A program made the translations under genes and the position numbers. From Bacteroidota bacterium (lineage in GTDB: Bacteria > Bacteroidota > Bacteroidia > Chitinophagales > Chitinophagaceae), in the NCBI GenBank assembly GCA_013288285.1, contig JABDCE010000011.1, positions 1 to 48,918 of the forward strand: a DNA stretch of 48,918 nt, written 5' to 3'. This document shows, in pieces, positions 2,110 to 43,510 of the stretch. Under the pieces are notes generated by a model that searched no databases, had not been told where the DNA came from, and worked only from the letters and a program-made list of their open reading frames with translations. Every line of letters begins with the position of its first letter. Within the stretch, counting starts at the first letter, position 1.

Positions 2110-4752
2110 ATGGATCAAAATAACGAAGAACAATTGCCGCAGGAGCTTCCTGAGAATGATAAGATCATACAAATAAATATAGAAGAGCAAATGAAAACGG
2201 CCTACATAGATTATTCTATGTCGGTGATCGTTGGGCGTGCCCTTCCTGATGTTCGTGATGGCTTGAAACCTGTGCATCGCCGCGTGCTTTTTGCCATGCA
2301 TGAGCTGGGTAATACCTTCAATAAACCTCACAAAAAATGTGCCCGTATCGTAGGTGAGGTACTGGGTAAATACCATCCGCACGGAGACGTATCGGTTTAT
2401 GATGCTATGGTGCGTATGGCACAGCCATGGAGCATGCGCTACATGATGGTAGACGGCCAGGGTAACTTCGGCTCGCAGGATGGCGATAATCCGGCTGCCA
2501 TGCGTTATACCGAGGCCCGTATGCTGCGCCTGGGCGAGGCCATGATGGAGGACATTGAAAAAGAAACAGTTGACTTTTCGCTCAACTTTGATGATACGCT
2601 GCAGGAACCTACGGTATTGCCTACACGGTTGCCCAACCTGCTGCTCAATGGCTCATCAGGTATAGCTGTGGGTATGGCTACCAACATGATGCCGCATAAT
2701 CTGACGGAAGTAGTTGATGGTTGTCTTGCGTATATTGACAACAACGACATTACTATAGAGGAACTGATGAAGTTTGTGAAGGCGCCCGATTTTCCTACAG
2801 GGGGCATCATATTCGGCATAGAGGGTATCAAGGCGGGCTTTCATACCGGCAGGGGCAGGGTAGTGCTGCGGGGCAAGGTGACCGTGGAAACGCAGAAGAA
2901 TGGCAAGGAAATGATCATCATTACCGAAGTGCCTTACCAGGTAAGCCGCGATGCGCTTGCTGAGAAGATAGGATCACTGGTAAATAATAAAATAATAGAT
3001 GGCATTACCCATGTGGGCAATGAATCGAATAAGGAAGGTACGCGCGTTGTGGTAGAGCTGCGCAGGGATGCCGTGGCACAGGTAGTGATTAACCAGTTAT
3101 ATAAGTACAGCGAGTTGCAGACCTCTTATGGTATCAATAACGTGGCGCTGGTAAATGGCCGTCCGCGTACACTGAACCTGAAGGATCTGATCGTTGAATT
3201 CATCACTTTCCGCCATGAAGTGGTGGTGCGCCGCACTAACTACGAATTGCGCGAAGCAAAGAAAAGGGCACATATACTTGAAGGTTACCTCATCGCATTA
3301 GACCACCTCGACGAGGTGATCAGGCTCATACGCAATTCGGCTAACCCCGATATTGCAAAGGATGGATTGATCACAGAGTTCGGTATGAGTGATATTCAGG
3401 CCAAAGCAGTACTGGAACTCCGTTTACAGCGCCTTACAGGTATGGAGCGCGAGAAGATCAGGGAAGAACATGCCGAACTGATGAAATTGATTGCACACCT
3501 GGAAGAGATACTGGGCAACCAGAGCATCCGCTACCAGATCATAAAGGATGAACTCTTAGATGTGCAGAAGAAATTTGGAGACGAGCGTAAGAGTGAGATC
3601 CACTATATGGCAGATGAGATGCGCATAGAAGACCTTATAGAGAAGGAAGATGTGGTGATCACAGTTTCTCATCTTGGGTACATCAAGCGCACATCGCAGG
3701 ATGAATACCGCTCACAACGCCGTGGTGGCCGTGGTGCCATGGGGGGCAAGACCCGCGATACGGACTATATCGAGCATCTGTTTGTGGCTTCCACCCACCA
3801 TACGTTGATGTTCTTCACTGAAAAGGGAAGATGTTTCTGGCTGAAGGTGTACGAGATACCGGAGGCGGATAAGAACGGAAAGGGCAGGGCGATACAAAAT
3901 ATGATTCAAATACCTGCCGACGACAAGATACGTACCGTTATCGACGTGCCTAAGCTGGAGGATGAAGAGTTCATCAACTCACATTATGTGGTATTGTGTA
4001 CCAAGAAGGGTATTATTAAAAAGACAAAACTGGCCGATTTCAGTCGCCCACGCGCAAATGGCATCATAGCCATCACTATCGAAGACGGTGATGAACTGCT
4101 GGATGTCTCACTCACCAGGGAGGGCTATTATATTATGATGGCTGTAAAGTCTGGCAGGGCTATATGCTTCCCGCAGGATAAGGTGCGGTCTACCGGCAGA
4201 GGCGCGATAGGTGTATTTGGTATTGAACTGGATGAAAATAACGATGAAGTTATAGGTATGCTTTGCCTGGACAAAGAAGATGTGACCAAGCAAATACTCG
4301 TCGTGTCTGAAAAAGGCCTCGGCAAACGAACGCCATTCCTGGAGCGTGTGGAAGACAAAGTTGAAAACGAAGAAAAATCAGAGGAAGCAGATCCATACAA
4401 CCTGATAAAAATTGATGGGCAGGATTACCTGCTTTCCTATCGGGTAACTAACAGGGGAGGCAAGGGTGTAAAAACCATGAATATTACCGAGAAGACCGGT
4501 GCACTTGTCGGTTTGATGGGTGTTGAAGAGTCTGACGACCTCATGATCACCTGCGAGTCGGGAGTAACCATTCGTATGAAAGTGTCCGCTATCCGTGAGG
4601 CAGGCAGGGCTACCCAGGGTGTGAAACTGATAAATATAGACGAAGGCGATAAAATAGCGGCAATTGCCCGTATAGCAGAGCAGGAGGGCGATGACGAAGA
4701 AACCAGCCCGGAAAGTGGAGAAGAGACTAACGGACAACCTGTGGAGGAATAA
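2110..4752 (+). CDS. gyrA: DNA gyrase subunit A
   Basis: Breakage-reunion subunit of DNA gyrase, which with GyrB introduces negative supercoils. The 880 residues match the family length. The winged-helix/tower core contains the catalytic tyrosine in AAMRYTEAR (Tyr133), and the C-terminal beta-pinwheel carries the GyrA box QRRGGRG (about 535-541), which distinguishes it from ParC. The quinolone-determining segment reads [10 protein letters not shown] (91-100). The residue equivalent to E. coli Ser83 is Val94, while Asp98 (E. coli Asp87) is kept. The protein ends in an acidic tail (about 859-880) common in gyrases. It stands alone with its own promoter-like element, and the next gene starts 57 nt downstream. 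Confidence 0.98.
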
Positions 4753-41471: not shown

Positions 41472-42263
41472 ATGAAGCGGTATTTCTTTGCGCTGTTCTT
41501 TTTATTGTCTGCTGCCTCCTCCTATGCCCAGGACGAGGGTTTGTTTGGCAAGGAAGTAACGCCGGGTACAAAACAGGGATTCATACTCAATGGCAACGCA
41601 GCCTTCGATATTCCGGGTGCTGATATGGCTAAGCGTTTTGGCCTCGACTACCGTTTAGGGCCTGCGGTATTATATAAGACCAAGTCAAACTGGCTCTTTG
41701 GCGCCAAGTTCGATTTTATACTCGGCAACACCATCAAGGGCGATTCCCTAATGTCCAATATCAGGGATAAATATTCAGCCACATCCGGGCAGTTGTATGA
41801 GTTTATCAACAACGCTGGTGAGCGTATAGGCGTGCCGGTTTATGAGCGTGGCTACGCTGTCGGCGTTAACGCTGGCTATATCTTCCGGCTCAATCACAAA
41901 CATCCGGATAACGGCCTTATGGTGCTCACTACCGCCGGCTTCATCCAGCACAAGATCGATATTTATGATAAGGATAAAAGTGTGAACCAGTTGGTTGGGC
42001 CTTACTTAAAAGGGTACGACCGCCTCACCAATGGTTCATTTGTGGAGCAATACGTTGGCTACGTCTATTTCAGTCGTAGCAGGCTCATCAATTTTACCCT
42101 CGGTTTCGATGCCCTGTTCGGGTTCACGCAGGGCCGTCGCGATTATCAGTACGACCTCATGCGGGCCGATAATGAAAAACGCCTCGATATTCTATTCGGT
42201 TTGCGCGGCGGTTGGTTCATTCCAGTCTTTAAACGCAAATCTGAAGAGATCTCATTTGAATGA
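41472..42263 (+). CDS. Outer-membrane beta-barrel-like protein
   Basis: A 263-residue exported protein with signal MKRYFFALFFLLSAASSYAQ. The mature part alternates hydrophobic and polar residues in strand-like segments with many aromatics (KSNWLFGAKFDFILG, YAVGVNAGYIFRLN, VGYVYFSRSRLINFTLGFDALFG) and ends GLRGGWFIPVF, consistent with a small outer-membrane barrel of the PorT type. Function not assigned. Its stop (TGA 42261-42263) overlaps the start of waaA as ATGA. The last 40 bp of the gene are also the source of the inverted copy inside waaA. Confidence 0.8.
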   Translation: MKRYFFALFFLLSAASSYAQDEGLFGKEVTPGTKQGFILNGNAAFDIPGADMAKRFGLDYRLGPAVLYKTKSNWLFGAKFDFILGNTIKGDSLMSNIRDKYSATSGQLYEFINNAGERIGVPVYERGYAVGVNAGYIFRLNHKHPDNGLMVLTTAGFIQHKIDIYDKDKSVNQLVGPYLKGYDRLTNGSFVEQYVGYVYFSRSRLINFTLGFDALFGFTQGRRDYQYDLMRADNEKRLDILFGLRGGWFIPVFKRKSEEISFE

Positions 42264-42278
42264 TGATACATACGGCCA
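42224..42278 (+). repeat. 55-bp inverted repeat, source copy (gene junction)
   Basis: Covers the last codons of the barrel-protein gene, the ATGA overlap and the first codons of waaA. Its reverse complement occurs at 42930-42984 with 53 of 55 positions identical. In coding terms the two differences would be Glu/Asp and Ser/Ala in the barrel protein's last residues. Confidence 0.95.
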
Positions 42279-43510
42279 TCTACCGGTTGGGCATTGCTGC
42301 ATACACCACTGCTATACGCATTGCTGCGCGGTTCAATGATAAGGCGAAACGCTTCACGGATGGCCGCAAAGGGCTGCTTCATAAGATTGGGGATGCCCTT
42401 GCCAACGATACAAGGCCCCGCTTGTGGATGCACTGTGCATCCCTGGGCGAGTTTGAGCAGGGTAGGCCTGTCCTGGAGGCGCTCCGCCGGCAGTACCCCG
42501 CATATTGTGTGGTCGTTACTTTTTTCTCCCCATCAGGTTACGAGGTCAGAAAAGATTACGATGGCGCAGACCATGTCTTTTATCTGCCCATGGATACGCC
42601 CGCAAATGCCCGTCACTTCCTTGATATAGTCCGTCCGGCTTTATGCCTGTTTGTTAAGTACGAGTTCTGGTATTTCTACCTGTCCGGACTTGCACAGCGT
42701 GGCATTCCTGCTATACTCGTATCCGCAGTTTTCCGTCGCGATCAGGAATTTTTCAAGTGGTACGGCGGGCTGCATCGCCGCATGTTGCGCTGCTTTGCGC
42801 ACATTTTTGTGCAGGACAATGCATCCCTTGGTTTGTTGCATAAGATCAAAATAACTAACGCCACCCTCGGCGGCGATACCCGTTTCGACAGGGTCATTGC
42901 AGCTGCGGCCAAGACGGAGGCTGTTCCATTGGCCGTATGTATCATCATTCAAATGCGATATCTTCAGATTTGCGTTTAAAGACTACAAAAGGCCGTAGCA
43001 CTCCTCCCTTCCGAATGGAAGTTCATTATCGTACCCCATGAGATTGGTGAAAGCCACCTTGCAGACATCGAAAAACGGTTCTCCGGCACTACCATGCGCT
43101 GGTCTCAGTGTGCATCGGGTCGTGATACCGGATCGGTCTTCACTGGAAAACGGATACTACTGGTAGATAAGGTGGGGTTGCTGCTGCAGCTATACAAATA
43201 TGGAAATGCAGCATGGATAGGCGGCGGCTTTGGCAAGGAAGGAGTGCACAATGTTCTGGAAGCTGCTGTTTACGGCATCCCTTGCTTCTACGGTCCCATA
43301 TTCCATCAGTTCATCGAGGCTCAACAGCTTATCGACAGGGGTGGGGGCTTCACTACCTCCGAAGCTGCCGATCTCGTCAGTTCCCTTAAGGAAATGGACG
43401 ATACCATCAGGTACCAACAGCATTGTACAGCGGCAAAGAATTACGTCCTTTCCGGTGCCGGTGCCACCGACAAGGTCCTTACCTACGTCAAAGCCAGCGT
43501 GCGTTTGTAG
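42260..43510 (+). pseudogene. waaA: Kdo transferase, interrupted by an in-frame stop
   Basis: 3-deoxy-manno-octulosonic-acid transferase adds Kdo to lipid A. The N-terminal half is normal: a hydrophobic start, HCASLGEFEQGRP with the catalytic Glu, VKYEFWYFYL, and GDTRFDRVI. The second half is also normal: KAVALLPSEWKFIIVPHEIGESH, WIGGGFGKEGVHN, ILEA-like NVLEAAVYGIPCFYGP. Between them, 42930-42984 is an inverted copy of the gene's own start region, ending in TAA (42977-42979). It replaces the expected AFKGxxxxxAGSTWPxDExLL segment. Both halves are in the same frame. As written it cannot make a full protein, although two separate half-proteins remain possible. Confidence 0.85.
42930..42984 (-). 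repeat. 55-bp inverted repeat, inserted copy within waaA
   Basis: Reverse complement of 42224-42278 with two mismatches (42956 and 42960). It sits at the boundary between the N- and C-terminal domains and carries the premature stop. It separates the copies by 651 bp. Confidence 0.95.

Follow-up and report, generated by a model that had tools for sequence, protein, structure and literature searches.

An inverted patch in waaA of a draft Bacteroidota genome has a twin in metH and may be a chimera formed in vitro or during assembly

Does a waaA gene that carries, in its core, an inverted copy of its own start region record a mutation in a living lineage, or was the patch formed in vitro or during assembly? 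The question is raised by contig JABDCE010000011.1 of the Bacteroidota assembly GCA_013288285.1 (Chitinophagaceae; here G000), of which we analysed the stretch from position 1 to 48,918; this whole stretch of 48,918 nt is called the window. In the window, a repeat search showed that the 55 nt at 42224-42278 (forward strand) reappear reverse-complemented at 42930-42984, on the opposite strand. The two 55-nt arms are 53/55 identical (96% complementary) and are separated by 651 nt; they differ at positions 25 and 29 of the repeat. Self-BLAST of the pair gave E = 7e-19, which excludes a chance origin. The 55-bp inverted repeat with 53 of 55 matches that an earlier inspection of the letters (the sequence-only reading) had reported is borne out by both searches. 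Searched with a seed of 12 nt and a minimum length of 30 nt, the window holds only one further inverted pair, of 32 nt at 78%. A 63-nt query, consisting of the 55-mer and 8 flanking bases, matched the two known places in G000 and no third copy.

The native copy, which we regard as the donor, comprises the last 40 nt of the gene upstream of waaA and the first 19 nt of waaA itself, the two genes overlapping by 4 nt. The upstream gene (41472-42263, forward strand) encodes 263 amino acids; described as a barrel gene in the sequence-only reading, it has no Pfam or NCBIfam match. Similar sequence stands at the same place as the native arm in the relatives G009 and G022.

The identity of the interrupted gene is clear from its 5' part (42260-42979, forward strand, 239 amino acids), which contains a Glycos_transf_N domain (PF04413, E 1e-43, 149 bits against a cut-off of 23.9) and confirms the earlier gene call of waaA. 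The frame of this part ends at a TAA inside the inverted copy. The 3' part (42985-43510, forward strand) has no Pfam match, but shares the frame of the 5' part and is open to its own stop at 43508-43510. The NCBIfam Kdo transferase models match the 5' part, the 3' part and the full-length protein of G009, the closest relative compared, all below their cut-offs. At the sequence level, the full-length G009 protein matches the WaaA of known structure (2xci) with an E value of 1e-25; compared in the same way, the window copy is missing the conserved segment with the GS residues where the C-terminal half begins, and carries a stop at that place.

Relative to G009, 22 codons (66 nt) reading AHFANGHKVLIAGSTWKEDEQF, which include AGSTWKEDE, are replaced by 16 codons (48 nt) of the inverted copy, the 48-nt core at 42935-42982. 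The net change is -18 nt, so the frame of waaA is kept, and the TAA at 42977-42979 is the single internal stop in a frame that is open on both sides, from 42260 to 43508-43510. The search for relatives matched 35 of 40 genomes, G000 itself included, and the best 29 loci were aligned; two of these 29 rows stop earlier at contig ends, and the 27 that cross the place of the scar are all uninterrupted and all have Gly-Ser there. Both the Gly and the Ser of the lost segment are fully conserved (column value 1.00) across 103 distinct full-length relatives. The sequence-only reading had named the AGSTW region, with an in-frame TAA, as the lost segment and had suggested measuring the loss against the waaA of relatives; the region stands, and the loss amounts to 22 codons of G009. 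The uninterrupted frame with the GS-containing segment that marks a WaaA is absent from the window copy, where that segment is replaced, with a TAA inside.

A second waaA was not found in one search of the assembly, which is 57.67% complete. The same assembly contains an intact kdsA. A kdsB was not found in G000, an absence that is uninformative because completeness is only 57.67%. A broken waaA is not unique among the drafts compared, since the waaA of the same-genus draft G019 (L041, G019:C686) carries one TAG in its N-terminal part. The closest waaA among the compared relatives is 73% identical at the protein level, and a scan of the contigs of the genomes for waaA gave a best relative of 69% identity. 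One of the WaaA relatives (50% identity) is encoded by a sequence titled Bifidobacterium breve (L090, CALPQG020000097.1); this is unexpected in a Gram-positive bacterium, and the title is probably wrong.

The junctions of the patch are consistent with copying that returned to the original strand. At the left junction, the scar reads CCATTGGCCGTATG and the donor strand TAGATGGCCGTATG. A probable entry microhomology, TGGCC (42930-42934, forward strand), lies in codons for Pro-Leu-Ala; these residues are kept by G009, while G024 has Pro-Val-Ala, and on comparison with these relatives TGGCC was probably present originally on both sides of the junction. The probable exit microhomology, CT (42983-42984, forward strand), corresponds to the first two bases of a Leu codon, and 80% of the relatives have Leu at this position. 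The native junction bases of waaA are reconstructed from relatives, because the closest waaA compared has 73% protein identity. The scar is an inverted copy of nearby sequence between two collinear flanks, and together with the inferred microhomology this supports the copy-and-return shape proposed in the sequence-only reading.

How old is the scar, and where do its two mismatches come from? Outside the scar, waaA retains 78 of 78 columns that are conserved in at least 90% of the 103 relatives; one more such column, the 79th, is a Phe within the segment that was lost. Neither a stop nor a frame change occurs in the 395 codons beyond the patch. In a substitution model without indels, the probability that waaA would be so clean under drift is ~0.0007 at 0.036 substitutions per site, 0.018 at 0.02 and 0.40 at 0.0045. 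Because waaA outside the scar is undecayed, drift accounts poorly for the mismatches. Translated as the C-terminal residues of the protein encoded upstream, the inverted copy gives KSEDIAFE and the native copy KSEEISFE, and these conservative exchanges (E/D and S/A) weakly hint at a second allele. At one mismatch site the relatives lean to the inverted copy (an Asp codon in G009, G022 and G023, Glu in G029), at the other to the native copy (T at that base), so the relatives appear to leave both arms eligible as the ancestral one. A second allele or copying errors fit the two mismatches better than later drift. Quasi-palindrome correction was considered as a further source and rejected: the sites lie in a palindrome of the native copy, GAGATCTC, but by eye neither half templates the other. 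The sequence-only reading had taken the two mismatches to rule out an artefact; this does not hold, since a metagenome bin can merge strains, and a donor strand from another strain would carry mismatches.

The waaA scar is not alone in G000. A second inverted patch, in metH on contig 70 (L190), relates 1128-1216 to 2119-2207 over 89 nt, with 87/89 identical positions and arms 903 nt apart. The scar sits between GSGKMFLPQV and ARVMKK, where, by our own partition, 75 nt of inverted sequence stand in place of 8 nt in G009 and shift the frame. The metH search gave matches in 33 of 35 genomes, G000 included, and all 11 relatives with sequence compared at the scar read GSGKMFLPQVVKSARVMKK straight through. 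The two mismatches of this pair lie at its edges, where native sequence resumes; the core matches the donor at 75 of 75 positions, as compared with 53 of 55 for the patch in waaA. Imperfect matches are observed at both junctions, AGGT[G/T]G and G[C/A]CCGTGT. Downstream of the scar, metH is 94% identical to G009 over 211 amino acids, without decay.

We surveyed inverted pairs of at least 90% identity, with a gap of 20-5,000 nt and in the size class of at least 45 nt, in 61 stretches of G000, one of them the window, that total 975,701 non-N bases (976 kb, or 38% of the assembly). Two such pairs were found, the waaA and the metH scars. The controls, three congeners (G009, 243,912 bases; G005, 400,000; G024, 226,557) and 80 named loci (492,433), contained none in 1,362,902 bases, a sum slightly above the true total because L054 is part of the contig that L235 represents; the controls are often short contigs or loci of less than 7 kb. 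Recurrence in the same assembly, as expected of chimeras, is therefore seen in G000, with two scars against none in the controls. Both G024 and the named copy of the same contig, L054, have shorter inverted pairs (30-31 nt), as does G000 itself (L193). The G024 contig that carries waaA (L235, G024:C253) also has repeats at 1-72 and 1380-1471: 7-nt tandem repeats (TTCAAAA-type) lie just 3' of waaA, and related ones, in both orientations, separate it from its upstream neighbour.

Inverted pairs longer than 89 nt, and hence long fold-backs with a gap of 20-5,000 nt, were absent from the sampled stretches of G000, which are mostly partial contigs with many contig ends outside the sample. A wider self-comparison gave six direct pairs in G000 besides the two scars; the control G024 yielded 23 pairs, none of which was inverted within one contig; the inverted ones among them joined different contigs, mostly at their ends. 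Counted against relatives in half-kb bins, frame changes occurred in 0/142 bins of G000, 0/50 of G009, 0/97 of G005 and 1/59 of G024. This survey has low power: the metH scar went unreported too, and because only frame changes were counted, the in-frame waaA scar is invisible to it. Nothing in the frame-change survey suggests an assembly full of breaks.

The twin scar points to a process that affected this assembly and away from a single mutation in waaA. Therefore, the loss of waaA put forward in the sequence-only reading is not established in a living lineage.

What kind of assembly is G000? Its completeness is 57.67% and its contamination 0.03%; the sampled contigs are ordered by size, the smallest (the 128th) is 2,506 nt long, and 10-N gaps are present. 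A 16S gene gave no match in this 57.67% complete assembly. Common binning programs use a cut-off of 2,500 nt, and G000 looks like a binned short-read metagenome. The low completeness and contamination would also suit a single-cell genome, but a metagenome bin agrees better with the 2,506-nt size of the smallest contig and with the missing 16S. The length of the repeat, 55, is also a common assembler k value. As a cause of the scar, the k-mer length was rejected, the copies not being identical and the metH scar measuring 89 nt; no overlap of contig ends that would reveal k was found among the sampled contigs.

On balance, and with some reserve, we favour the reading that the scar is an inverted chimera formed in vitro or during assembly, which survived by returning to the same template. 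A few matching bases would have let the strand growing in waaA switch to the complementary strand some 650 nt away; after copying about 50 nt there, it would have returned about 66 nt further on, leaving an inverted patch with an in-frame stop. The most likely setting would be DNA amplification, library making or metagenome assembly, not a living cell. Inverted chimeras made by a single jump would be trimmed off or left at a contig end; those that copy and return would be collinear with the genome and, if assemblers filter in this manner, could for that reason survive assembly. The two mismatches would then stem from the allele of a second strain or from errors in copying.

This reading draws its support from the second scar of the same shape in an assembly that resembles a metagenome bin, set against controls without any pair of at least 45 nt, and from the condition of the genes: both scars lie in core genes that otherwise look intact, and kdsA is intact as well. 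Inverted orientation, short distance and junction complementarity, inferred for waaA and observed for metH, are all found. This signature is typical of chimeras from multiple displacement amplification (MDA): Lasken and Stockwell describe 406 of 475 MDA chimeras as inverted, with complementary bases at 93.5% of the inverted junctions less than 10 kb apart (PMC1855051), and in an MDA metagenome study the chimeras were mostly inverted and most were about 500 bp apart (PMC10945365). Like these, the two scars are inverted, have sources less than 1 kb away and show short matches at their junctions (PMC1855051, PMC10945365). In contrast, the MDA chimeras are described as joining two sequences at one junction, whereas each scar needs two (PMC1855051). 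They were also rare, at less than 0.07% of unmapped reads in the metagenome study (PMC10945365). Also counting against this reading, no long fold-back was seen in the sampled stretches of G000, and the absence of frame changes in its 142 bins, in a survey of low power, speaks against a generally poor assembly.

Given the fidelity of phi29 polymerase, internal mismatches are not expected when a single template is amplified. We hold the chimera reading no more firmly than stated because a single-template chimera leaves these mismatches unexplained.

An inherited origin, whether by a template switch or by patching with a fragment from another strain, is possible, but we give these two together distinctly less weight. 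Two recent breaks of the same type in core genes, with kdsA kept, make inheritance harder to accept. Of the two, an in vivo four-point template switch at a replication fork, which would have recently inactivated waaA in the sampled lineage and left mismatches through error-prone synthesis, is the stronger, though we consider it rather unlikely. A sound outer membrane normally depends on waaA, so that a null allele would not be expected to become dominant in a population, and the intact kdsA points the same way; about 650 nt is, moreover, a long distance for short-range template switching. The metH twin would demand a second rare, recent and gene-breaking event of the same kind. For such a switch speak the probable microhomology at the junctions, the undecayed remaining frame, which suits a very recent event, and the lack of a second waaA in the 57.67% complete assembly. 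The shape, too, fits the four-point model: a short native segment gives way to an inverted copy of nearby sequence, after which synthesis resumes on the original template (PMC7954356). The scar departs from the mutations described there in its distance of ~650 nt, its two mismatches and an in vivo origin that is hypothetical (PMC7954356).

A broader version of inheritance, in which inverted patching at microhomologies, from nearby or other-strain strands, is common in vivo in a wild Bacteroidota lineage and recently broke waaA and metH in its dominant genotype, leaving lipid A without Kdo, seems to us unlikely.

Less probable still is that a short single strand from another strain annealed at two microhomologies in vivo and patched the gene, carrying the donor allele KSEDIAFE in place of the native KSEEISFE. 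In Acinetobacter baylyi, short-patch double illegitimate recombination replaces native sequence at two microhomologies with a short ectopic segment, whose donor may be foreign. Such patching would account for two junctions and for two conservative mismatches, and the metH scar with its imperfect matches at both ends is in keeping with it. However, unlike in Acinetobacter baylyi, both donors here are local (less than 1 kb away) and inverted, which is not predicted for a random fragment; the metH core equals its donor at 75/75 positions, and two broken core genes raise the same difficulty as for the in vivo switch.

An old duplication followed by drift, in which the gene is long dead and the copies have diverged, would explain two mismatches in 55 but is highly implausible given the 395 codons free of stops and frame changes, the 78/78 columns kept and the low drift probability at 0.036 substitutions per site, though that probability rises to 0.40 at 0.0045. 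Equally implausible is a functional inverted repeat, an invertible element or regulatory switch around 651 nt of waaA: the 55-nt arms do bracket this segment, but no flip of it can restore waaA, the native arm is plain coding sequence that G009 and G022 also have, and the other arm destroys the segment with the fully conserved Gly and Ser columns. Moreover, Pfam matches were obtained for three of the four neighbours scanned (SIS/glutamine amidotransferase, outer membrane efflux protein and inositol monophosphatase), none of these three being a recombinase, and the fourth has no match.

If the scars are artefacts, as the chimera reading holds, they have a searchable signature, a core gene that is clean apart from a short inverted patch whose source lies less than 1 kb away, and such chimeras, which draft genomes can carry, create false pseudogenes. 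If the waaA scar is real, it would be a recent case of copy-and-return mutation over a long distance in bacteria, caught before decay blurs the trace.

Two other repeats were seen in G000. Positions 1-550 of L152 (G000:C20, a contig start) match 14985-15526 of L200 (G000:C6, contig interior) at 93.6% over 550 nt; the matching sequence encodes the start of an apparently exported protein and may represent a paralogue or a second strain. In L207 (G000:C14:20001-40000), near-identical direct repeats at 3611-4164 lie in a long open reading frame that, by eye, resembles a phage tape-measure gene.
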